Part shown: piece by piece, positions 5,887 to 48,591 of the stretch
Layout: every line of letters starts with the position of its first letter
Numbering within the stretch: position 1 is the stretch's first letter
Assembly (NCBI GenBank): GCA_028690055.1
Contig: JAQVBZ010000011.1
Coordinates: forward strand, 1-49,405
Source: Minisyncoccota bacterium
GTDB taxonomy: Bacteria > Patescibacteriota > Minisyncoccia > JAHIHE01 > JAGLIN01
Reading direction: 5' to 3'
DNA: 49,405 bases
Made by a program: the position numbers and the translations under genes
Notes under the pieces: generated by a model
Database searches by the model: none
What the model was told of the DNA's origin: nothing
Seen by the model: only the letters and a program-made list of their open reading frames with translations

Positions 5887-5958
5887 GGTGGCTATAGTGT
5901 AGTGGTAACACTAGAGGTTGTGGTCCTCTCATCCAGGGTTCGAATCCCTGTAGCCACC
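5887..5958 (+). tRNA. tRNA-His (anticodon GUG)
   Basis: The acceptor GTGGCTA pairs with TAGCCAC, and the extra G at 5887 opposite C5958 is the histidine-specific G-1. The anticodon stem AGAGG/CCTCT with loop TTGTGGT gives GTG. The bases just after the gene (CCCAAAT, then a CGCTTGTTTA hairpin terminator) resemble the repeated modules found downstream up to 13.7 kb. Confidence 0.93.
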
Positions 5959-5966
5959 CAAATCAA

Positions 5967-5998
5967 AAATAATCGCTTGTTTAGACGGTTATTTTTTA
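5967..5998 (+). terminator. Terminator of the tRNA operon
   Basis: AATAATCGCTTGTTTAGACGGTTATTTTTT is a hairpin with a terminal T run. Its sequence, not only its shape, is close to the terminator half of the repeated modules at 8901, 10181, 11791 and 13611. Confidence 0.7.
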
Positions 5999-6012
5999 TA
6001 TCCTAAATTAAG

Positions 6013-6067
6013 TTTGGGATTTTTTAAAACCTAAATATTGATAAAAATCCCAAAATAGATATATAAT
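6013..6067 (+). promoter_or_regulatory. Promoter overlapped by a perfect 12-bp inverted repeat
   Basis: TTTGGGATTTTT (6013-6024) and its exact reverse complement (6043-6054) flank an 18-base loop. The right arm covers the end of a likely -35 TTGATA (6038-6043), which is followed after 18 bases by TATAAT (6062-6067). The palindrome could be an operator for the large transglutaminase-like gene. The predicted leader is about 100 bases. Confidence 0.45.
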
Positions 6068-6175
6068 AAAAGCATTATTTAAACTTACACTATTTGACTC
6101 CCTGTGCTTGTAAAATTGCTTCATGCATAAATGTTTTGTCGATGCCAGTTTATTAAATAATCTAAACTAAGATTT

Positions 6176-8626
6176 ATGAAATCATTTGAATTTGATTCTA
6201 TCCACAAACTTATAACTACTAAAGAAAACGGACATAAAGAGACAGAAAAAACAAAAAAAGATCCAAACATTGATACTCCGGAAACAATGAACGAGGGGGA
6301 AAAAAATGAAATAGAGCAAGATGAAGATGATGAATTTGAGATTGAACACAGGCCATATGAAACACCAGCGGTAAGAGAAGACATCGATAAGTTCGTCACA
6401 GACCTGGATTGTAAGCTCAAGGAAAAAGCAATATCTTTCGGAATTACTAATGAGGAAGGATTAGAACATTTTCGCCAGCAGGCTTTTGAGCTAGCAAATC
6501 TAGAGATGAAATATATTGATGGACAGACTTTTATCAGAGAATTAGAAGAGCTGAAGCTTAATCGAGGCGACTTGGAATTTATCAGCGCCTCCATACTAGA
6601 CGCCGTCGATGATATCCATCAAAACCTCGAAGGCAAGCTCGTCGGCGAACATTTTTCTTTTACGCAAAAAGCGTTGGAATTCGTGGGTAAACATAAACGG
6701 GTATTCAATCTGGGCGCGCTAGCGCTTTATCTATCGACTTTCGGTTCAGGAGTCCTTAAGGCGATGAGCGGCGATCAGGCTAAGATAATCATCGATTACG
6801 ACGAGACAAGAGAAAAAGACTATATGGCAAATAGTTTACATTTACCTGTAGCGGAAGACGGTAATCATACTACAGAAAACAATCTAGAGATGACAGAGCA
6901 AGAAAATTACATAGAAAATTTAGGTAGCGATGAGACCTTGGCAGCATTTGAGAAGTTCGAAGAAGAAAATAGGAAAGACGGCTACCAGGAATCGTCTATC
7001 GGACAGATCACAACGGCCCAGCTTATGGAGAACCCAGAACTTATTACCTTGATAGACAATCATAGAGACCTTAATTCACCTATGAATATCTTGGAGCAGG
7101 TATCGCCAGCCGGCGAGTTTTCACACGGAGATGTGCACTTTTCCTTCGTGATGAGAGAAGATAATGATGTGTATTTGGAGAACCTGAGCGCGGATGATAA
7201 TAGTAGCATTCTCCGACTTGACCAAACACTGCAAGAGAAATATGGCATACCTATAAGGGAGCTTGGGACACAAGGTATCCCGCTAAAAATGTTCGCAGAT
7301 GAAGAAGAAAACCTAGTAGAAATCTTCTCCAAAGAGCTCGACATTCCTGCCGCAAAGCTGATGACGTATGCTGATCATATAATACTTCCAGACACCTCTC
7401 AAATAGAAATTGTCAAATTCGAAGACTTCCATATTCCGATTGACGAAGACACTCCAGAGATGTCCCGACTCAAAGAGATGAAGGAAAATATCTATGCTAA
7501 ACACGGGTTAGATATATTCGGACAAATCGTGGTCGATAAAGAACTATCCAAGGAAGTTCAAAATATCACCACCAACGAAGATAGCATCGTGGACTATACC
7601 ACACAAGAAGCCCGAGAAAGCTTCCTGCATCACAATCAAGAAGAACGCTTGGCGGCGGCAGAAGCGGAACTCCAGCAGCGACTAGAAGCCGATGGAGATT
7701 CTACTGGCTACGATAATTACGATATCCTTCTGTCAAGAGCTAGTCAGGACTCTAATACCAGCCAGCTTAAAGCAAAGATTGCCAGTTTAGGAATAAACGA
7801 AGTGCATGCGGATGATTACGAGAACAGCGAAGAATTTCAGGAAATGTTCCTGAAAGCACTGGCTGACGACGGCTTTCCGCTTCCAGAACTGGAAAAAATC
7901 GCCCAGAAAGATCCGAAGAAAGTTATCGAAATCGTCTCTCAGACAGTGGGAAAACATGTGAATTATAGCAACCTTGAATCTACGGAGATCAATAGAGGCA
8001 CGGCATATACTAATATGGACGCCCTCCATCTAAAATTAAGACATCAAAGCTTGCCAGCGGCAACACTCGGCGCAGGAGCAGGCATCTGCCATGATTATGC
8101 TCCGACTATGGCTGCTGGACTGGATGTTTTGGAACAATTGGAGATTCCCCATATGGACAACTTACTCATTATGCAAACTACCTTAAAAGGAGAACATACC
8201 TATGTGCTCCTTGCTACTTATGAAAACGATGCGATACGAATATCATTGGTAGATCCCACTTTTGCCGACAGCGGAAGCGACCTTGATGCCGTTGATAATA
8301 TACATTCTTATCATGGCGTATCGCCAGAAATATATAAGGCACAAAAAGAAATATTAGAGCGACAAGTAGAAGAAAAAGATGAAGCCATAAAAAATTTTCA
8401 CCAGACAATGGCCGCGCACGAAGAAATCCAACGCAGGATTGAACTCAAGAATTTTTTTGCCTTCCAACAAAGAATCGTGGATTTCATAACAAAATATTTT
8501 CCAAAGGAAACACGCGGGCGTAAAATCCAAGTGGACGAAAATTCTTACCGAGCCATCCAGAAGCACGAGCAAAAACTGACAGAAATGCGCAAAAAGATAA
8601 ACGAAGCAGACACTGATAACAATTAA
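6176..8626 (+). CDS. Large protein with C-terminal transglutaminase-like domain
   Basis: An 816-aa, strongly acidic protein. The N-terminal ~65 residues are low-complexity and charged. A weak hydrophobic segment lies at ~176-192. The C-terminal part has a transglutaminase/protease-like triad: Cys638 in GAGICHDYAP, His674 in GEHTYVLL and Asp693 in LVDPTFAD, with spacing typical of the papain-like transglutaminase fold. Such domains hydrolyse or cross-link peptides and glutamines. The last ~90 residues are a charged coiled coil. There is no clear signal peptide, so it is probably cytoplasmic or inner-face attached. It is the first gene after the tRNA operon and stands alone between its own promoter and a terminator. 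The substrate is unknown. Confidence 0.72.
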   Translation: MKSFEFDSIHKLITTKENGHKETEKTKKDPNIDTPETMNEGEKNEIEQDEDDEFEIEHRPYETPAVREDIDKFVTDLDCKLKEKAISFGITNEEGLEHFRQQAFELANLEMKYIDGQTFIRELEELKLNRGDLEFISASILDAVDDIHQNLEGKLVGEHFSFTQKALEFVGKHKRVFNLGALALYLSTFGSGVLKAMSGDQAKIIIDYDETREKDYMANSLHLPVAEDGNHTTENNLEMTEQENYIENLGSDETLAAFEKFEEENRKDGYQESSIGQITTAQLMENPELITLIDNHRDLNSPMNILEQVSPAGEFSHGDVHFSFVMREDNDVYLENLSADDNSSILRLDQTLQEKYGIPIRELGTQGIPLKMFADEEENLVEIFSKELDIPAAKLMTYADHIILPDTSQIEIVKFEDFHIPIDEDTPEMSRLKEMKENIYAKHGLDIFGQIVVDKELSKEVQNITTNEDSIVDYTTQEARESFLHHNQEERLAAAEAELQQRLEADGDSTGYDNYDILLSRASQDSNTSQLKAKIASLGINEVHADDYENSEEFQEMFLKALADDGFPLPELEKIAQKDPKKVIEIVSQTVGKHVNYSNLESTEINRGTAYTNMDALHLKLRHQSLPAATLGAGAGICHDYAPTMAAGLDVLEQLEIPHMDNLLIMQTTLKGEHTYVLLATYENDAIRISLVDPTFADSGSDLDAVDNIHSYHGVSPEIYKAQKEILERQVEEKDEAIKNFHQTMAAHEEIQRRIELKNFFAFQQRIVDFITKYFPKETRGRKIQVDENSYRAIQKHEQKLTEMRKKINEADTDNN

Positions 8627-8823
8627 GTTTTCGGACATTCCTATAGACTAAATTTTGCATTATTCGTCCAAACAGAGCCATAGGTTCGTTACAAACAAAA
8701 TCATCTTTTTTGCCTTTCAAAATGCAATAATAATAACCTGTTTAACTATCCAATAAACCTCCAAGCGACGAACTGTCACAAAATTAGCAAGATAAGAAAT
8801 AACAGAGAAATAAAATTGATTTG

Positions 8824-8851
8824 ATAATGGTCTTGAACTCCATTATTTTTT
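8824..8851 (+). terminator. Rho-independent terminator
   Basis: ATAATGG (8824-8830) pairs with CCATTAT (8840-8846) and a T run follows. It is about 200 bases after the transglutaminase-like gene; the AT-rich stretch between shows no gene. Confidence 0.55.
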
Positions 8852-8900
8852 ATACAATTTTATCCGCATTTAAATCAAATACACGAATTTCATTTCTCAC

Positions 8901-8984
8901 CTTATTCCACTTCAAAGTTCTGAACGCGTCCAGCAGTGGACCCGAATGTCAAATGACCGCTCATATAAGCGGTTATTTTTATAT
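8901..8984 (+). repeat. Tail module copy A (palindrome plus terminator)
   Basis: Shared core with copies C, D and E: CAAAGTTCTGAACGCG, then the hairpin GTCCA-GCAG-TGGAC, then CCCGAATGTCAAAT, then terminator ACCGCT-CATATA-AGCGGT and TTATTTTTATA. It is the first copy downstream of the tRNA-His tail. It runs directly into a ~110-bp promoter module also present behind copy D. Confidence 0.75.
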
Positions 8985-9096
8985 CCCGAATAGAGGTTAC
9001 AACTTTTTTCGATGGCATATACCCAGGAAATTGCACTTCAGAATAGAATTTAAGTTTGAGTACTTGACAATTCATATTTTTTCTGCTATGCTCTGT
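8981..9096 (+). repeat. Promoter module, first copy
   Basis: About 115 bp nearly identical to 11871-11995. Shared landmarks are TATATCCCGAATAGAGGTTA, CGATGGCATATACCCAG, ATTGCACTTC, TAGAATTTAAG and TACTTGACAATT. It ends in a strong promoter. The genes behind the two copies are unrelated. Confidence 0.7.
9064..9092 (+). promoter_or_regulatory. Sigma70-type promoter
   Basis: TTGACA (9064-9069), 17 bases, TATGCT (9087-9092). The perfect -35 and spacing predict strong transcription into the 128-aa gene, with a leader of about 42 bases that includes AAAGGAGTGA. Confidence 0.75.
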
Positions 9097-9140
9097 CGTT
9101 AAGTAAATCCCTAGATTAAGGAACACAAAGGAGTGATAAA

Positions 9141-9527
9141 TTGTTAAACAAAACAACAAAGAAAGCATTAAAATACTTAAACGAAATGCAAGATGTCGAC
9201 AATCGAGTAAAGGTTATTATCGCCGATTGGTTAGAAAACTTTTTTAACTCAGAACCTCTAAATGCCACCCTCTACAAAATTTATCTAAAAGAAGAACATC
9301 ATCTTGGAAAGGTGTGGGCAGCAGCGTTCCTTCTTGGAACAAACGTCGACTTAAAAGAAAAAAAAGAAAAAGAGGAGAAAAATATACAACGTTTGATACT
9401 TGAAGGAGCAGAATTATATAAAAAAGAGGGAAATCAAGAATATAGCGAAGAATTAAAAATAATAGCAGAAAATATTTATGTTTTAATTAACATAAATAAA
9501 AAAATACGCGAAGAAAAAGAATGTTAA
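9141..9527 (+). CDS. Small charged helical protein, unknown function
   Basis: A 128-aa protein starting at TTG 9141, chosen because a near-perfect Shine-Dalgarno (AAAGGAGTGA, 9127-9136) ends four bases before it. The sequence is rich in Lys, Glu and Leu and predicted all-helical, with a lysine/glutamate run in the middle (about residues 72-82). No signal peptide or membrane segment and no recognised family. It has a private strong promoter and a private terminator, and sits between tail modules A and B as a single-gene unit. The strong expression signals argue that it is real and functional despite its size. Confidence 0.7.
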   Translation: MLNKTTKKALKYLNEMQDVDNRVKVIIADWLENFFNSEPLNATLYKIYLKEEHHLGKVWAAAFLLGTNVDLKEKKEKEEKNIQRLILEGAELYKKEGNQEYSEELKIIAENIYVLININKKIREEKEC

Positions 9528-9579
9528 GGATAAAAGTATATTTACATGAAGATTCATGTAAATAGCTTATATCCTTTTT
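9527..9579 (+). terminator. Long hairpin terminator overlapping the stop
   Basis: AGGATA...ATTTACATGAA-GA-TTCATGTAAAT...TATCCT followed by a T run. The hairpin begins right at the stop codon of the 128-aa gene. It is one of the strongest terminators in the window. Confidence 0.8.
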
Positions 9580-9663
9580 AAATTGTCCGGATCTACCTCT
9601 TTACACGAAAAAACATTGCTACATATATAAACAAAATAATTTTCATTAGGGTTTACCCAATCC

Positions 9664-9695
9664 CAGACTATAAACACGTCCAGCATCGGACTCAA
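9664..9695 (+). repeat. Degenerate tail module copy B
   Basis: ACACGTCCAGCATCGGACTCAAAT matches the palindromic core of the module (ACGCGTCCAGCAGTGGACCCAAAT) with a few changes. The terminator half is missing; instead a promoter for the NUDIX gene follows directly. Confidence 0.5.
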
Positions 9696-9696
9696 A

Positions 9697-9726
9697 TTAG
9701 ACTTTTCTATTTTGTTTTGTTATAGT
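9697..9726 (+). promoter_or_regulatory. Promoter giving a near-leaderless NUDIX transcript
   Basis: TTAGAC (9697-9702), 18 bases, TATAGT (9721-9726). Initiation about seven bases later would fall on ATG 9733, so the mRNA would be leaderless. This is consistent with the absence of any ribosome site. Confidence 0.45.
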
Positions 9727-9732
9727 TTTAAT

Positions 9733-10158
9733 ATGGAAAACAAGAATAAAAGAATAACCGCGCACCTTATTCCCTATAAAATTATAGATGGACATTTTTT
9801 CATTTATTTGCAAAAACGTTCGAATGACGCCGAACGCGAGCCTGGCTGGTTTACAATTTTTGGCGGAGGAGTGGAGGGAGAAGAATCCCCCGAGACAGCA
9901 ATGCTACGAGAGATCAAAGAAGAGCTAAATTTTATTCCGACCAGCTATTCCTTCTTGGGAAAATACAGTGATAATTATAGCATCTCTCATTATTATATCT
10001 CAGAGGTTTATAATGATTTTGAATATGAGATAAAGATTGGAGAAGGTGAATATGGCAAATTTTTTTCAGAAGAAGAAATTGAAAATGAACATAAATTAAC
10101 AGAAAACAATAAGCAAATCATAAAAGATCTGATTAGCCATATAAGTATGGGAAAGTAA
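9733..10158 (+). CDS. NUDIX hydrolase
   Basis: A 141-aa single-domain protein from ATG 9733. The Nudix box is clear: GGVEGEESPETAMLREIKEE, matching G-x5-E-x7-R-E-U-x-E-E. The following Gly of the consensus is replaced (LNF instead of xGU). The box binds the metal that activates water to cleave nucleoside-diphosphate-linked substrates. The N-terminus (ITAHLIPYKIIDGHFFIYLQKR) is the usual first strand pair. The specific substrate cannot be told. An upstream TTG in the same frame would add seven residues across the predicted -10 and is rejected. It is a single-gene unit between tail modules B and C. Confidence 0.87.
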   Translation: MENKNKRITAHLIPYKIIDGHFFIYLQKRSNDAEREPGWFTIFGGGVEGEESPETAMLREIKEELNFIPTSYSFLGKYSDNYSISHYYISEVYNDFEYEIKIGEGEYGKFFSEEEIENEHKLTENNKQIIKDLISHISMGK

Positions 10159-10180
10159 TCGTGTTAAATTCCGCTACCAT

Positions 10181-10263
10181 CTTATTCCACTCCAAAGTTC
10201 TGAACGCGTCCAGTAGTGGACCCAAATGCCAAATGACCGCTCATATAAGCGGTTATTTTTATA
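10181..10263 (+). repeat. Tail module copy C (palindrome plus terminator)
   Basis: Almost identical to copy A across TTATTCCAC, CAAAGTTCTGAACGCG, GTCCA-GTAG-TGGAC and the terminator ACCGCT-CATATA-AGCGGT with T run. Similarity stops at the end of the T run; the promoter module of copies A and D is absent here. It acts as terminator of the NUDIX gene. Confidence 0.75.
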
Positions 10264-10337
10264 AAATATTGCCCCCCATTTTTATACATTATAGAATGAT
10301 ATAAGCTAATACAAAAGACATAAACGGCGGAGATATC

Positions 10338-10366
10338 TTGACAATTCCGACATATTACCATATCCT
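10338..10366 (+). promoter_or_regulatory. Sigma70-type promoter
   Basis: TTGACA (10338-10343), 17 bases, TATCCT (10361-10366). Like the promoters at 9064 and 11955 it begins TTGACAATT. The leader is about 50 bases and ends in the same AAAGGAGTGA ribosome site as the 128-aa gene. Confidence 0.65.
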
Positions 10367-10425
10367 ACGAATAATTAGTTAATAATAAACTGCAAAACAA
10401 ACAACAAAATAAAGGAGTGATTTAG

Positions 10426-11610
10426 ATGGAGAGGAAATCTTGGTTGCCATCAGGTGGCGAAAATCTATTTCAGAAAATAAAAGATCAGCAAAAGAAGGCG
10501 GAAGAAAAAGGAATAAGAGTACGCAAGATGTCTATCGGACAGCCTTCAGGAGCAGCTTTGCTGAGCGCGAGAAAAGCGGCTGCATCAGCGGTTTCAAGTA
10601 ACGAAGAAAGCCATCATGAATATCAGGACAACGGAAGCCCGGGAGTTCCTAATTTTGCGGAGCGTTTCGTACAATGTCACATAAAATGTGATTTGAGCAA
10701 AATTGAAGAGATGAGCTTTTTGCCTACACCCGGCACTAAGTCAATGCTTATGATGATACCACTTGCTTGTGGCTCTTCATACAAAAAAGATTTGTTAGTT
10801 GGAACCCACACCAAGCCAGGATATCCGACTCCCGCAATCGTATGCAACTATTTGGGAGTAAAAAATTACGCCCTCAAGACAAACATCAGAAACCAATTCC
10901 TTTTTGATGAAAAAAGTATCAAGAAAGGCACCAAGCTTCTCATGGTCAATTTCCCTCACAACCCAACGGGGCAAATTGCCACCAAGGAGTTCTGGGAAAA
11001 AATCTGTGCCTATTGCGAAAGAGAGGGCATTCGTCTTTTCAACGACGGGGCCTACGCAGGTCTTGCACACAGTAAAGATCACTGCACACTGGCAGATGCA
11101 GCAATTCATCACCCAAGCCTCGAATGGGTAGAAGCCTACACGGCATCCAAAACAGCCGGAAACGCCACGGGATGGCGCGTAGGTGCAATTGTAGGTTCGT
11201 CCGCTTTCGTAGGTGATATCGCCACGATAAAATCAAACCTGGACAGTGGCTTTGTTGCTCCAATGGCGGCAGGCATAATACATGCCATAGAGAACGACCA
11301 AAAGGGAATGAAAAAACACAGAAAAACATACGAAGAAAGAATTGGATTCCTCATTCAAACCCTTGAAAGAGAAGGAATGAGAATTGCTGTAGTTCCTGGA
11401 GCAGGATTCTTCACTTTCTGGCAAGTTCCCAAGGAAGCCTTTGGGATAACAGTTGAGAATGGAGAAGAATTCAATAACCTGATGATCAAAAAAGAAGGGA
11501 TTGTTGGGGTCCCATTTGGAGAATTCATAAGATATTCGGTAACTCAAGATGTTATCGAAATGGGACCTGCCATCGCATCTGCCTTTAAACGGGCAGAAGT
11601 ATTATACTGA
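10426..11610 (+). CDS. PLP-dependent class I/II aminotransferase
   Basis: A 394-aa fold-type I aminotransferase with the family's core residues: Asn179 in NFPHNPTG, Asp207 and Tyr210 in NDGAYAG (pyridine nitrogen and phenolic contacts), the Schiff-base lysine Lys242 in SKTAGNATGWRVG, and Arg369 in FIRYS (substrate carboxylate). Overall layout is closest to LL-diaminopimelate/aspartate-type enzymes, but no amino-acid pathway genes are adjacent, so substrate is unknown. The ribosome site AAAGGAGTGA precedes ATG by six bases. Free-living-type amino-acid enzymes are sparse in CPR genomes; its isolated position in the module-bounded block suggests acquisition. Confidence 0.87.
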   Translation: MERKSWLPSGGENLFQKIKDQQKKAEEKGIRVRKMSIGQPSGAALLSARKAAASAVSSNEESHHEYQDNGSPGVPNFAERFVQCHIKCDLSKIEEMSFLPTPGTKSMLMMIPLACGSSYKKDLLVGTHTKPGYPTPAIVCNYLGVKNYALKTNIRNQFLFDEKSIKKGTKLLMVNFPHNPTGQIATKEFWEKICAYCEREGIRLFNDGAYAGLAHSKDHCTLADAAIHHPSLEWVEAYTASKTAGNATGWRVGAIVGSSAFVGDIATIKSNLDSGFVAPMAAGIIHAIENDQKGMKKHRKTYEERIGFLIQTLEREGMRIAVVPGAGFFTFWQVPKEAFGITVENGEEFNNLMIKKEGIVGVPFGEFIRYSVTQDVIEMGPAIASAFKRAEVLY

Positions 11611-11716
11611 AACAAAATATTAATCTATTTTCAGGAAAGATTAGGAGAAATTCTAAAAAACCTCTCTTTCCTTCTCAATTTCCAAACTCACAAATCATTG
11701 CGATTTTAGAAAAGAA

Positions 11717-11749
11717 AACAACGTATTTCGATCCGTTGTTTTTTATTTA
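11717..11749 (+). terminator. Rho-independent terminator
   Basis: AACAACG (11717-11723) pairs with CGTTGTT (11734-11740) and is followed by TTTTTATTT. It ends the aminotransferase transcript. A weaker hairpin (AGGAAAGA...TCTTTCCT) precedes it near 11633-11672. Confidence 0.7.
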
Positions 11750-11790
11750 TGAATATATTGTTTGATTAAACTTTTTTATTTCATTTCCCA

Positions 11791-11876
11791 TCCTACACCA
11801 CTCAAAAGTTCTAAACGCGTCCAGTAGTGGACACAAATGCCAAATAACCGCTTGTTTAAGCGGTTATTTTTATATC
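11791..11876 (+). repeat. Tail module copy D (palindrome plus terminator)
   Basis: CTCAAAAGTTCTAAACGCG, hairpin GTCCA-GTAG-TGGAC, ACAAATGCCAAAT, then terminator AACCGCTTGTTTAAGCGGTT with T run. Its terminator half is the closest of the set to the tRNA-His tail. Confidence 0.75.
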
Positions 11877-11995
11877 CCGAATAGAGGTTACAACTTTTTA
11901 CGATGGCATATACCCAGAAAATTGCACTTCAAGATAGAATTTAAGCTAAGATACTTGACAATTGTAATCTTTTCTGCTACTATGCGCCTAGTTTA
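11871..11995 (+). repeat. Promoter module, second copy
   Basis: Nearly identical to 8981-9096, sharing TATATCCCGAATAGAGGTTA, CGATGGCATATACCCAG, ATTGCACTTC, TAGAATTTAAG and the TACTTGACAATT promoter start. The downstream genes share no similarity. Confidence 0.7.
11955..11983 (+). promoter_or_regulatory. Sigma70-type promoter
   Basis: TTGACA (11955-11960), 17 bases, TACTAT (11978-11983). It is the end of the second promoter module and drives the helical-repeat gene. Confidence 0.7.
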
Positions 11996-12022
11996 ATAAA
12001 AAAGTACTCAACAATTAAAAGC

Positions 12023-12038
12023 AGGAGGAATCAGCATT
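12023..12038 (+). promoter_or_regulatory. Strong ribosome site facing a possible ATT start codon
   Basis: AGGAGG at 12023-12028 stands seven bases before ATT 12036, in frame with the following gene and 16 codons ahead of its first ATG. The only nearby ATG (12043) is in another frame and opens just MKKPKVP. Either translation starts at ATT, or the 5' end has suffered a frameshift. Confidence 0.4.
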
Positions 12039-12083
12039 ACTGATGAAGAAACCAAAAGTGCCGTAGCACACCAGAATGCTACT

Positions 12084-13445
12084 ATGTTCTTTTGGAGATG
12101 TCTGGAAAGATATTCCCCCGAAACCAGTTTCGGTCACGACAGGGATATGGACGCCTTTTTGTCCGATTTAGATGAAATCGCGTTAGGAACCGATTTCTTG
12201 GACGCTCTATTTGATTATAAATTGAGCAAGCCGAGATTTATGAAATTCATCTGGCTTCTGTTTGCACCCGGTGGGTACGACTTTACAGGAAGCAGGCGTA
12301 TTTTTGACTGGCCGTTCCCACTGAACGACCCAGAAAGGTTCTGCCCCAAGAATCTACCGGAATGGAAGATAAAATTCATAATGGATTTCGTCGAAGAATT
12401 CTCCGATGAAAAGTATTATGGGGGTGATAGATACCACTGGGATATGTGTTCAGAAGCTTACATGCAGCTGGCTTTTGCCATCCTGCCATATATAGAGAAG
12501 GTCGAAGATAAAAAAACGAGAGAAACTCTACTGGAAAGAGCAGTGGTGTTTCTATCTCAAAATTTCTATTTCGAAAGAGCGGTGGAGGGTGATTCCTCTT
12601 CGTTTCTCTACAAAAAAGAATTAGAGGAAGTGGACCAAAACTTTCTCAAGGATTACAAGAACAGGAGGGACTTAATATCCTTGGGATGCAAGAAAGGGTA
12701 TCGCTGGAGTAATAGTTACGCCGAAGAAAGTACTAATCTGGCCATCGCCATCCTTCCTCAGATTGAAGAAATTCAAGATGAGGTAAAGAGAAAAAAGTTA
12801 TGGAGACAGGTTGCCGTTGTACTCTCCCAAAATCTTTTTGGAAGAGCTACCCAAAAAGGGCTCTCAGCGAACGACTTGAAGGATGCCGTCAGATTTCTTC
12901 TTCTCAGGAAGGATATCATCGACGAGACAAAGATAGCTATCCTAGACAGGGTGATACATAAGAATATATCTGAAGTCTTGTCAACCAGGGGTCCGTGGGC
13001 CCTCAAGACAAATTGGATCATGGAACCCCTCCATTTCTATGCAGATATTGTGGGTGTGTTTGTAAAAGAAAACGAAGGTATCCCGTATAGCTCGCAAGTA
13101 TTTTATCACCAAGCTGCATTCATCATGGAGAAAGCACGACAGTATTACGGAGTAGGAGGATACTTCCCTTTCTGTATGATAGAAAAAATATTTTCTGTCC
13201 TTACAAAAGAACAATCCCAAGAGATTGCAGAATTCATTCTTGAGATAAGCCACATCTCCCTATATATAAATAGCGAGGAAGATGTAAAACAGATGAGACT
13301 ATTGATGGAGCACATACCTCCCGAAGATGATAGAGGCCTGCGCTACAGGGCGAGCCGAGAAATCAGAAGGTTTTATGCTCACCAGAAGGAATGCGAAAAA
13401 AAGATAGAAAAGCACAAGTCCTTGATCAGGACTATGTGTGATTAA
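12084..13445 (+). CDS. Helical-repeat protein of unknown function
   Basis: 453 aa from the first ATG; the true start is probably 48 bases upstream at ATT 12036, behind AGGAGG. It is soluble and mostly helical with no signal peptide. An internal duplication is visible: residues 126-168 (YMQLAFAILPYIEKV...VVFLSQNFYFERA) align with 216-258 (STNLAIAILPQIEEI...AVVLSQNLFGRA), suggesting HEAT- or TPR-like helical hairpins. No enzyme motif or known family recognised; a protein-binding scaffold is the plainest guess. It has its own promoter module and shares its 3' block with the aminotransferase, forming another single-gene unit. Confidence 0.68.
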   Translation: MFFWRCLERYSPETSFGHDRDMDAFLSDLDEIALGTDFLDALFDYKLSKPRFMKFIWLLFAPGGYDFTGSRRIFDWPFPLNDPERFCPKNLPEWKIKFIMDFVEEFSDEKYYGGDRYHWDMCSEAYMQLAFAILPYIEKVEDKKTRETLLERAVVFLSQNFYFERAVEGDSSSFLYKKELEEVDQNFLKDYKNRRDLISLGCKKGYRWSNSYAEESTNLAIAILPQIEEIQDEVKRKKLWRQVAVVLSQNLFGRATQKGLSANDLKDAVRFLLLRKDIIDETKIAILDRVIHKNISEVLSTRGPWALKTNWIMEPLHFYADIVGVFVKENEGIPYSSQVFYHQAAFIMEKARQYYGVGGYFPFCMIEKIFSVLTKEQSQEIAEFILEISHISLYINSEEDVKQMRLLMEHIPPEDDRGLRYRASREIRRFYAHQKECEKKIEKHKSLIRTMCD

Positions 13446-13458
13446 AAATATGAGCCTT

Positions 13459-13491
13459 AATGGAGATAAGGCAAAATACCTCATCTCCATT
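13459..13491 (+). terminator. Perfect 9-bp hairpin after the helical-repeat gene
   Basis: AATGGAGAT (13459-13467) pairs exactly with ATCTCCATT (13483-13491). The bases after it are only moderately T-rich (AAACTTTTCC), so it may be an mRNA 3' stabiliser in front of the next terminator. Confidence 0.45.
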
Positions 13492-13494
13492 AAA

Positions 13495-13692
13495 CTTTTC
13501 CAAGCCCACAAAAAATTTGCGGTTTTAGAGAAAAAAATAACGGATTTAGGTCCGTTGTTTTTTATTACACAAGCATATTTAAACTACATTTCCCCGCTTC
13601 CTCTTTTATTTTCACCCACTCAAAAGTTCTGAACGCGTCCAGCAGTGGACCCAAATGCCAAATAACCGCTTGCTTAAGCGGTTATTCTTATA
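13495..13692 (+). repeat. 3' module, second copy, ending in tail module E
   Basis: Aligns with 11678-11876 over its whole length. It contains terminator AACGGA-TTTAGG-TCCGTT plus T run (13539-13565). From 13611 it carries tail module copy E: CTCAAAAGTTCTGAACGCG, GTCCA-GCAG-TGGAC, CCCAAATGCCAAAT and terminator AACCGCTTGCTTAAGCGGTT. It is the last full copy; the minus-strand ABC gene follows. Confidence 0.7.
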
Positions 13693-41188: not shown

Positions 41189-41240
41189 AATTTTTTTTAA
41201 AAATTTATAAATTATTAACAATAATGTTGTCGATTTCGAA

Positions 41241-41394
41241 GTAGCAGACTTTAGTCTGCGCGCATTGTGGAGTAGCAGCTTTTAACCTGCGCGCATTTTG
41301 GGAGGTGGCGAATACGGGAAAGAATGGACGATCGGCGTGATAGATAAACCGGATTGCTGCGTGGGATAGCAGCGCGGGATAAATCCCGCTACTC
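41241..41394. repeat. REP element (two left halves, one right half) between kinase and regulator
   Basis: GTAGCAGAC-TTTA-GTCTGC at 41241 and GGAGTAGCAGCTTTTAACCTGC at 41269 are left-type palindromes. AGCGCGGGAT-AA-ATCCCGCTACTC ends the element. It occupies nearly the whole gap between the two signalling genes. Confidence 0.8.
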
Positions 41395-42407: not shown

Positions 42408-42515
42408 TTTTTTGATTTAACTTCTTATCTGCCTTTGAAATTATTATATCACAAATCTTTTTTAAAAACAAAAATAGAGTGGCTGTCCAAAACAGGTAGA
42501 ACGGATAGATGCAAT

Positions 42516-42815
42516 GGAGTAGCAGGTTTTAACCTGCGCGGTTGTCCTATACAGGTAGAACGTGCGTATGCAACGGATTGCCGGGTGGAGTAGCAGACTT
42601 TAGTCTGCGCGGTTGTCCAATGCGGATGGGACGTGGAGTGCGACGGGTTGGCGGCTTGGGATAGCGGCGCGTGATGAATCCCGCTACTCCATGACACATC
42701 TTACCGGGTGGAGTAGCAGGTTTTAACCTGCGCGGTTGTCCTATGCGGGTGGGACGTGCGATGGCGTAGGTTTTAGCGACTTGGGGCAGCGGCGCGGGAT
42801 GAATCCCGCTACTCC
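42516..42815. repeat. REP array left of the RAYT gene
   Basis: Left-type palindromes begin at 42516, 42587 and 42710; right-type palindromes end at 42690 and 42815. A degraded copy (GAGTGGCTGTCC, 42477) precedes them. The second and third units repeat with a 123-base step. The array ends 17 bases from the RAYT stop codon. Confidence 0.9.
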
Positions 42816-42831
42816 GTATGATAAACACGTC

Positions 42832-43365
42832 CTACTCATCCCCATTTGTAAAATCAACAATCGGATATTTCTCAAAAGCATCATTTATCCATTCCACACC
42901 CTTTTCCTCAAGCCATTTCTTGTACGAAGAATATTCGTAGTCTTCCATACGCGCAACATATCCGTGCTTCACCGGATTATGATGGATATAATTAAAACGC
43001 GCCCAAAAATCTTTCTCTTCCTTGATACAAGCGTCCCAATAGTTATACCAAACCATCCTTTCCGCTACATTGTCCATTTCGTTCAGCAGATAAGCGCTCT
43101 TCCCATTAACTTCTTTGATAAAATCGACAAGGTCTTTGCCCTTCTTAATTTTGATTAAGAGATGATAATGATTATCCATAATAACAAAAGCGAAAATATC
43201 AACGCTAAATTTAGCTGCTTTTTCTTTTAAAATATTTTTTAGTATTTCTTTCTTTGTATTATTGTCGAAGAAAGGCGTTTTGTGATATGTAGCTGCGGTG
43301 ATGAAATATATCGTATTGTCAGAAAGATAATGCGGAGGTTTGTGATCGCTTTTAAAATTTTGCAT
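42832..43365 (-). CDS. REP-associated tyrosine transposase (RAYT, Y1/HUH family)
   Basis: A 177-aa single-domain HUH nuclease. Histidines His66 and His68 in FVIMDNHYHLLI bind the metal. The catalytic tyrosine is Tyr126 in RFNYIHHNPVKHGYV, and YNYWDACI is a further conserved block. RAYTs nick single-stranded REP hairpins next to a 5' GTAG and are thought to spread them. Here the gene is embedded in palindromes that begin GGAGTAGC, so the substrate is visible beside it. Length and motifs are complete, so it is probably active. Confidence 0.93.
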   Translation of the reverse strand: MQNFKSDHKPPHYLSDNTIYFITAATYHKTPFFDNNTKKEILKNILKEKAAKFSVDIFAFVIMDNHYHLLIKIKKGKDLVDFIKEVNGKSAYLLNEMDNVAERMVWYNYWDACIKEEKDFWARFNYIHHNPVKHGYVARMEDYEYSSYKKWLEEKGVEWINDAFEKYPIVDFTNGDE

Positions 43366-43403
43366 ATTTATTATATATTTTTATATAATTATAGCAAAAA
43401 TGC

Positions 43404-44387
43404 GCGAGTACCGAAACCCGCTACTCCATGTTACATTTTGCCGGGTGGAGTAGCAGGTTTTAACCTGCGCGGTTGTCCGAAGCGAGTGGAAAGAACGTAT
43501 GCGACGGGTTGGCGGCTTGGGACAGTGGCGCGTGATGAATCCCGCTACTCCATGTTACATTTTGCCGGGTGGAGTAGCAGGTTTTAACCTGCGCGGTTGT
43601 CCTATGCGGGTGGAAAGAATGTATGCGACAGGTTTGGCGGATTAGGACAGCGGCGTGTGATGAATCCCGCTACTCCATAACACATCTTGCCAGGTGGAGT
43701 AGCAGGTTTTAACCTGCGCGGTTGTCCTATGCGGGTGATGCAAGCTATCAAATGGAGTAGCGTGCTTTAGCGCGCGCGGTTGTCCCACGCGGGCGAAACT
43801 AACGTATGCGACGTATTTTCTTTTTGCGATGGAGGGACTTTTAGCGGCTTGGGACAGCAGCGCGGGATGAATCCCGCTACTCCGTGTATTATACCGCTTC
43901 ATGCGATGGAGTAGCAGGTTTTAACCTGCGCGGTTGTCCTATGCGGGTGGAACGTGCGAGTGCGACGGGTTTGGCGGCTTGGGACAGTGGCGCGTGATGA
44001 ATCCCGCTACTCCATGACACATCTTACCGGGTGGAGTAGCAGGTTTTAACCTGCGCGGTTGTCCTATGTGGGTGGAACGTGCGAGTGCGACGGGTTGGCG
44101 GCATGGGACAGCGGCGCGTGATGAATCCCGCTACTCCATGACACATCTTGCCGGGTGGAGTAGCAGGTTTTAACCTGCGCGGTTGTCCTATGCGGGTGGG
44201 ACGTGCGATGGCGTAGGTTTTAGCGACTTGGGACAGCGACGCGGGATGAATCCCGCTACTCCGCGTTACATTTTGCCGGGTGGAGTAGCGTGCTTTAGCG
44301 CGCGCGGTTGTCCTATGCGGGTGGGACGTGCGATATCAAAAGTTTTAGCGACTTGGGACAGCGGCGCGGGATGAATCCCGCTACTCC
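43404..44387. repeat. Tandem REP array, ~124-bp period
   Basis: A right half ending 43427 is followed by units whose left palindromes start at 43447, 43571, 43696, 43754, 43908, 44033, 44157 and 44282; most steps are 124-125 bases. Each unit is GGAGTAGC-AGGTTTTAACCT-GCGCGGTTGTCC, ~45 variable bases, then GGGACAGCGGCGC-GGGATGAATCCC-GCTACTCC. Two left halves (43754, 44282) carry the variant CGTGCTTTAGCGCG, keeping the palindrome while changing its bases. Spacers between units are also conserved (CATnnCACATCTTnCCGGGT). Confidence 0.93.
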
Positions 44388-44392
44388 AAATA

Positions 44393-44422
44393 CCAAAAAC
44401 CCCGCAAATGAATGCGGGGTTT
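44393..44422 (-). terminator. Terminator of the S-layer-like gene
   Basis: On the minus strand ACCCCGCA-TTCATT-TGCGGGGTTTTTGG is a strong hairpin with T run. It stops transcription before the REP array. Confidence 0.8.
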
Positions 44423-48005: not shown

Positions 48006-48411
48006 ATTTTATTGTTCATTTCTTAAATCGGGTTTTTTATATAGCCCGACAGTTTAAATTAAGAAAAATATATTTTAATCAGAATCACATCTTCTCGCGA
48101 ACGGTTTTGATGCCTGTCACTCCCCCTTATCTTTTAACAAGAATGTTAAAGATAAAGACAAACAACTAGGATCGGCCCACCAAACCTTTTCAGTGTTCCG
48201 GACTTGAAAGCTATTACTCTTCGGCGCAGGCGAAAGTCTGCAATTCCGATTTTCACGGCCCCAACTATCCAGTCGACGTCAGCTCACGTATTGGATGTGT
48301 TTCCCTCTGTGAATCGAATTAAATAAGAATACCTGTTTACTTTCATTATTTTGCTCGTATTTGCGAAATAATCACAATTACGAGTAAAACAAGGAAAACG
48401 AATTTATAAAT
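48006..48411. other. Long upstream region of the S-layer-like gene with structured segments
   Basis: No gene in 400 bases. Features: CGGGTTTTTTATATAGCCCG hairpin (48028-48047), CTTTTAACA-AGAA-TGTTAAAG (48131-48151), and around 48230-48249 TCGG-C-GCAGGC-GAAA-GTCTGC-AATT-CCGA, a nested stem with a GNRA loop when read on the plus strand. CTCGTA...TACGAG lies at 48353-48384. The segment is less AT-rich than its flanks, as structured RNAs often are. No known riboswitch or ncRNA was recognised. Confidence 0.35.
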
Positions 48412-48591
48412 GGAGTAGCAGACTTTAGTCTGCGCTGCTATCCGATGCGGATAAAACGTGTGATTGCGATGCGTATTTACCGGATGGAGTAGCAGGTTTT
48501 AACCTGCGCTGCTGTCCTAAGCGGATAAAACGTGTTAATGCGACGATTTTTTCGACTTGGGATAGCCGCGCGGGATGAATCCCGCTACTCC
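48412..48591. repeat. REP element upstream of the S-layer-like gene
   Basis: Left-type palindromes at 48412 (GTAGCAGAC-TTTA-GTCTGC) and 48486 (GTAGCAGGTTTTAACCTGC) and one right-type GCGGGATGAATCCCGCTACTCC ending 48591. Same family as the RAYT array, four kb away. The following 48592-48750 holds nothing recognisable. Confidence 0.85.

Follow-up and report, generated by a model that had tools for sequence, protein, structure and literature searches.

Arrays of single-gene units behind tRNA genes in Patescibacteria, separated by probable attachment-site scars of a serine recombinase family

The tRNA-His gene in the window (the whole stretch of 49,405 nucleotides analysed here, from contig JAQVBZ010000011.1 of a Minisyncoccota bacterium) is followed by a row of unrelated genes separated by copies of a short module. 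Each module is, very probably, an attR site derived from a family of large serine recombinases (LSRs) that target the 3′ ends of tRNA genes, with repeated insertion at one place building the array. On the minus strand the module's first half encodes the final ~30 codons of an LSR gene, and it doubles as the recombinase's attachment half-site; the second half is a copy of the sequence normally found after tRNA-His, which makes each module an attR scar.

The array in the window

Behind tRNA-His lie four full copies of a ~108-nt module, at about 8886-8980, 10165-10260, 11776-11871 and 13598-13689, and one decayed copy at ~9667-9693, and to this extent the initial annotation of the locus is confirmed. 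The full copies are 76-100% identical to the reference copy, with nhmmer E-values of ~1e-11 to 1e-14 (the search model was built with these copies included), while the decayed copy reads PMLDVFIVWDWV on the minus strand where PLLDAFRTFEW is expected. The sequence 3′ of tRNA-His, which had been reported to align with the second half of the module, does so over 41 bases at 73-83% identity in all full copies. In the list below P and P′ denote the halves of attP, and B and B′ those of the target; a B′-like tail is present after tRNA-His and after each of the window's 4 full modules.

5888..5959, plus strand: tRNA-His(gtg), the insertion target (ARAGORN; orthologous Arg-Lys-His tRNA cluster in relatives, with an LSR element inserted in the orthologue in genome G003)
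Within 5888..5959, plus strand: B half-site, the tRNA-His 3′ end (..GTTCGAATCCCTGTAGCCACCC), crossover ACCC
5960..5996, plus strand: tRNA-His tail with terminator (B′ half), which aligns with the tail of all modules
6176..8626, plus strand: unit 1 gene, 816 aa, no known family
8886..8943, plus strand: module 1 P half, the LSR gene 3′ end on the minus strand (..GPLLDAFRTLKWNKVRNE..)
8917-8931: module 1 core, with crossover ACCC at 8940-8943
8944..8980, plus strand: module 1 B′-like tail with terminator
9064..9092, plus strand: unit 2 promoter, sigma70-like TTGACA-17-TATGCT (from sequence and repeat comparison)
9141..9527, plus strand: unit 2 gene, 128 aa, no known family
9667..9693, plus strand: decayed P half (ACTATAAACACGTCCAGCATCGGACTC), without terminator
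9712..10158, plus strand: unit 3 gene, NUDIX hydrolase, 148 aa (Pfam PF00293)
10165..10223, plus strand: module 2 P half (core 10197-10211)
10224..10260, plus strand: module 2 B′-like tail with terminator
10426..11610, plus strand: unit 4 gene, class I/II aminotransferase, 394 aa (Pfam PF00155)
11776..11834, plus strand: module 3 P half (core 11808-11822)
11835..11871, plus strand: module 3 B′-like tail with terminator
11955..11983, plus strand: unit 5 promoter, sigma70-like TTGACA-17-TACTAT (from sequence and repeat comparison)
12042..13445, plus strand: unit 5 gene, 453-467 aa, no known family
13598..13652, plus strand: module 4 P half (core 13626-13640)
13653..13689, plus strand: module 4 B′-like tail with terminator, the end of the array

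The genes separated by the modules (816 aa, 128 aa, NUDIX, class I/II aminotransferase and 453 aa) are mutually unrelated, as had been said of four of them; the count was too low, the 816-aa gene belonging here too, and the array thus has 5 genes in 5 units, with the decayed copy dividing the 128-aa gene from the NUDIX gene. The unit 4 product is LL-diaminopimelate aminotransferase-like, with a score under the cut-offs. An LSR gene is absent from each of the 5 units, so that the earlier remark that no integrase is visible holds for the units themselves, yet the module is itself the 3′ end of an integrase gene. A GTCCA-nnAG-TGGAC hairpin that had been described as a feature of the module is not kept in relatives (which have, e.g., GTCCTGTAGGGGGAGC); it is incidental rather than a functional part. 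In an Rfam search the window's 4 tRNAs were the sole matches, with no other known RNA.

Two other repeats occur in the window. A second common terminator-like stretch (50 nt, 86%) lies just upstream of modules 3 and 4, at 11698-11747 and 13517-13566. A separate repeat array at 42480-44400 and 48410-48590 (also 38792 and 41238-41394) comprises 13-16 copies of a ~36-69-nt unit, with a hairpin, GGAGTAGCAGGTTTTAACCTGCGCGGTTGTCC, and a spacing of ~124 nt.

Origin of the module in a recombinase gene

On its minus strand every good copy of the module encodes LP-L-[LQ]-DAFRT-[LFI]-[DEN]-W-x-x-I-[RK]-x-E-L followed by a stop. This frame is open over 18 codons in 116 of 129 copies (the other frames in 37 and 10), and its second codon positions are conserved while third positions vary. 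At two loci, L069 and L102, the peptide runs on upstream into the C-terminus of an LSR, and the corresponding C-terminal segment (P0001) matches intact LSRs of 500-550 aa together with many fragments, in 32 of 384 genomes of the class. In these genomes the LSRs are antisense, with their 3′ ends entering a tRNA gene (Asn, His, Glu, Gln, Leu, Lys, Trp, Arg or Ser). Across relatives the module retains the sequence GTTCTGAAYGCGTCC together with a 3′ end that depends on the target, and often a terminator as well. Among the parts of our best explanation we regard the derivation of the P half from an LSR gene as demonstrated. Two LSRs (L284 in G004 and L297 in G095) have another tail, ..WLTIVDNVRTIIQRQNEYIYIPDLRP, which suggests that there is a second class of attP in which the R-T codons are unchanged.

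The initial annotation had kept open the alternative that the module is simply an ordinary or spreading terminator, and many modules do contain a good terminator. This reading is almost certainly wrong. The module is not a genome-wide terminator, because a search of the whole 1.46-Mb genome finds it only in the tRNA-His array; its conserved half is protein-coding, precedes the terminator and ends at the recombinase crossover; and in other genomes the module also occurs without a terminator, with a promoter directly after it. The terminator reading is refuted outright by the complete LSR elements described next, unless these are coincidences.

Genome G003 carries the window's Arg-Lys-His tRNA cluster, and there a 544-aa LSR with Resolvase, Recombinase and zinc-ribbon domains overlaps tRNA-His. 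At this orthologous locus (G003:C28) the LSR is antisense and reads into the tRNA. A module with a tRNA-His-type terminator after it is found 16.0 kb beyond; the comparison of orthologous tRNA-His loci, which had been put forward as a check, thus revealed an intact 16.0-kb LSR element with the module at its far end. When the ends of this element are joined as in an excised circle the LSR frame is restored, with ..SDWGPIVDAFRTVEW.. / ..SRAFAPAFSDWGPIVDAFRTVEWDRIKGELMGLDRKLALS in frame. Rejoining the ends also restores the LSR frame of an element in tRNA-Glu (G266, 10.4 kb) and of one in tRNA-Asn (G351, 11.1 kb, core GGAGCC), and we consider in-frame restoration to be established for the complete elements, which have LSR domains PF00239, PF07508 and PF13408. 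They meet the expectation of an attachment site inside the recombinase gene and of a gene divided by integration. Two smaller elements of 1.8-2.0 kb, both in tRNA-His (G114 and G021), have ~110 aa of LSR left. All of the genomes are draft metagenome assemblies, and orthology was judged by gene order. A cognate tRNA-His LSR was not identified in the window's own genome, where the LSRs found are not at tRNA-His.

A tyrosine recombinase had been suggested as the enzyme responsible, but the complete elements identify it as an LSR, and the only PF00589 protein in the window's genome is XerC/D-like. This bears on the possibility that the array is a classical integron (CALIN), with attC sites and a tyrosine integron integrase. 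The layout is certainly similar: single-gene units, each ending in a repeated recombination site, usually with no adjacent recombinase and with genes that mostly point towards the site (69:18 in Patescibacteria). The ends of attC sites carry the consensus motifs RYYYAAC and GTTRRRY. The site described here lacks these motifs, GTTCTGA not being GTTRRRY, and it is a double-strand att half-site that comes from the end of an LSR gene; the recombinase is a serine recombinase, and many units have a terminator and some a promoter. We therefore give the classical integron practically no credence.

Half-site rule, targets and distribution of the modules

In serine integrase sites the outer motif is 5 bp nearer the crossover in attB than in attP (Rutherford et al. 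2013, PMC3783163). Measuring each half-site from GTTC up to where the shared core ends, and comparing P and B halves (the P′ half was left out), we find 27 in the modules for Asn (55/62) and for His (14/18), and 26 for Tyr (32/36), a class which also took in tmRNA-type modules; the tRNA genes give 22, 22 and 21 respectively, in each case 5 less. Outside these three scored classes are 17 of the 133 modules. Modules ending CCACCTCCA have 26 as against 21 in tmRNA, and the difference is 5 when measured element by element as well; at L312, counted by hand to CTGC, the values are 27 (module) and 22 (tRNA). In 5 elements, from 4 target classes, the half-site of the module exceeds that of the tRNA by exactly 5 bp. 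The 3′ end of the module varies by target, being ACCC, GGAGC, CGCCCCCA, CCACCTCCA or CTGC, and both the 5-bp half-site rule and the match of the site's 3′ end to its target can be considered established.

Some observations concern the range of targets. At L326, in the chlamydial genome G391, tmRNA is a further target: an LSR of the module family lies antisense and enters its 3′ end, and this target has a module flavour of its own. At L327 and L328 (chlamydial G389 and G388) the LSR enters a tRNA-Tyr 3′ fragment whose 5′ part is unlike a tRNA, and ARAGORN finds no tRNA at that fragment in either. The targets met most often, tRNA-Asn, tRNA-His and tRNA-Tyr, share a GUN anticodon and are queuosine tRNAs, a pattern that does not extend to the Glu and tmRNA targets.

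The same core, GTTCTGAAYGCGTCC, with a conserved 5′ flank occurs in other genera of the family, in another family of the order and in many families of the class. A 25-base pattern run against 84,980 species genomes matched 81 stretches, with ~1 chance match estimated; nearly all are from Patescibacteria and environmental Chlamydiota, e.g. Anoxychlamydiales, Parachlamydiaceae and Simkaniaceae. The viral collection held no exact match to the 25-base pattern. Altogether 133 distinct modules were found in Patescibacteria and Chlamydiota, the copies being clustered, mostly 0.3-5 kb apart, and 74 units are bounded by modules at both ends (some are one locus counted twice).

The proposal that module-bounded units are added at the end of a tRNA gene finds support in the relatives, where modules sit behind tRNA-His, tRNA-Asn and tRNA-Tyr and where tRNA-Asn loci differ by one unit. 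Two orthologous tRNA-Asn loci have ~10 kb upstream in common; G003:C13 has a single unit, which in G001:C34 is preceded by a further unit with its module. The unit common to both is 93.9% identical exactly up to GGGGGAGC, the crossover, and the sequences are unrelated beyond; presence or absence of a unit with its edge exactly at the crossover is thus directly observed. (G003:C13 at L045 and G009:C25 at L055 are 99.8% identical over 12.9 kb, apparently one contig in two bins, and were counted once.) A small Zn-ribbon gene flanked by modules recurs in two families (78% nt), and two chlamydial genomes have a DUF1543 unit in common (82%). Contigs of G012 and G010 stop at the tRNA-His 3′ end and G012:C3 starts inside a module, as expected if strains differ at tRNA-His, though repeats alone can break assemblies. 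The window's own locus was not seen in an empty form, and its right-hand neighbour has no ortholog beside tRNA-His in the relatives.

It might be argued that homologous recombination between module copies built the array, without any site-specific recombination at the level of units. Modules 1 and 3 would offer a substrate: a 202-nt stretch at 8887-9088, containing the unit 2 promoter, is 86% identical to 11778-11979, and RecA could delete or duplicate units there. We think this improbable as an account of the array, as it leaves the tRNA linkage, the 5-bp rule and the unrelated genes between modules unexplained, and the identity between genomes ends exactly at the crossover.

Units without a recombinase and relation to known systems

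In the mechanism that we propose for the attR arrays, attP (P + P′) would lie inside the 3′ end of the LSR's own gene. Insertion would cut this gene near its end, placing the LSR body (the P′ side) antisense into the tRNA. The last ~30 LSR codons (the P half, ..PLLDAFRTLDW..) would stay behind at the distal end of the insert and be fused to the tRNA tail B′ that the insert has displaced. Successive insertions at the same tRNA would give a row of units separated by P-B′ modules, and in the window 5 genes would have been added in this way behind tRNA-His. Bare units, with a B′-like terminator at their start and sometimes then a promoter, may have arisen from circles with a P-B′ site inserted at B-B′ by an LSR acting in trans.

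The left ends of units bear on this last step. Of the 154 left ends at all loci, 55 open with a strict terminator, against 1-2 in shuffled sequence, and 4 retain LSR remnants. Among the 97 patescibacterial left ends 21 have a promoter within 150 nt, compared with 1 on the opposite strand and 3-10 in shuffles. Aligned with the native tRNA-His tail of G002, the module tails score 75 (module 1) and 87 (module 3), with shuffled maxima of 38 and 37, and the module 3 tail scores 68 against the window's own tRNA-His tail (shuffled maximum 35). We infer that circles with a P-B′ site, moved in trans, are the simplest origin of the LSR-less units, because a series of ordinary attP × attB insertions should produce just one B′, at the distal end, with LSR bodies at the remaining left ends; the movement itself is unobserved, and the sequence of steps by which complete elements became bare units is likewise an inference. 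Serine integrases normally recombine only attP × attB, or attL × attR with a helper (PMC3783163), and the P-B′ × B-B′ exchange proposed for the bare units is not an established reaction.

A different account, with no movement in trans, is that all units were once complete LSR elements in which deletions left one cargo gene and an attR scar. Decay of complete elements is indeed seen, in the truncated LSRs at the left ends of L069, L102, L113 and L324 and in the small tRNA-His elements described above, and several array-bearing genomes have no PF07508 match. However, LSR sequence remains at few left ends compared with those starting with a strict terminator, in each unit of the window the deletion would have had to end no more than a few bases from the crossover and to set a tRNA-tail copy at that point, and some units are common to different genomes. 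Pure accretion and decay is a possibility that we rather doubt but cannot set aside. The account with movement in trans is itself tentative, and we hold it as quite possible without claiming that it is probable: the arrays would be a second kind of integron, in which single-gene cassettes, often with a terminator and sometimes a promoter, end in a serine-recombinase P half-site and are exchanged in trans at tRNA and tmRNA 3′ ends in Patescibacteria and environmental Chlamydiota. Integration would replace the C-terminal tail of the recombinase with antisense-tRNA codons, and excision would give the tail back. If this is true, the tail swap could serve as a built-in directionality switch.

Several known systems resemble parts of this one. 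The serine-integrase islands and prophages of the phiC31/A118 type likewise have an LSR with Resolvase, Recombinase and zinc-ribbon domains, attP and attB half-sites 5 bp apart in length, and attL and attR as products, whereas here attP lies within the recombinase 3′ coding end, the targets are tRNA and tmRNA 3′ ends, and there are attR arrays with recombinase-less units. Staphylococcal SCC elements (Ccr) are LSR elements that accumulate one behind another at a single gene's 3′ end; att repeats mark their junctions, and some of them have no recombinase. Accretion works alike here, and the G003 LSR is weakly similar to CcrB and CcrC (77-79 bits, against Ccr cut-offs of 900), but the target is a tRNA rather than rlmH, the units are single-gene and the att site is embedded in the recombinase gene. 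With recombinase, targets and sites all different, the system is a member of neither the SCC elements nor the integrons.

Archaeal suicidal integrases (SSV1, pTN3, pT26-2) also have the target within their own gene, which integration splits; they are tyrosine recombinases and exclusively archaeal according to a 2021 review (PMC8371274). The enzyme described here is a bacterial serine recombinase that loses only its last ~30 codons, and it would be a bacterial serine-recombinase case of the self-interrupting integrase, extending the type beyond the archaeal tyrosine recombinases. In the integration-dependent immunity of mycobacteriophage BPs, attP lies inside an ORF and integration alters the encoded C-terminus (PMC4557955); there it is the repressor that is altered, here the recombinase itself. 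In the literature searched, which excluded subscription journals, we found no description of LSR elements at tRNA genes in Patescibacteria/CPR or Chlamydiae, or of cassette arrays in Patescibacteria.

Little is understood about horizontal transfer in bacteria whose genomes are very small, and the arrays offer a concrete mechanism for gene gain in them, with an easily recognised 15-base signature that also occurs in environmental Chlamydiota. They also draw attention to a group of insertion enzymes for which a tRNA 3′ end specifies the target. The cargo of the complete elements includes restriction systems, of type III in the G003 element (L181) and type I in the G351 element (L315), and the route is therefore open to defence genes as well; these two loci are mobile defence islands in Patescibacteria.
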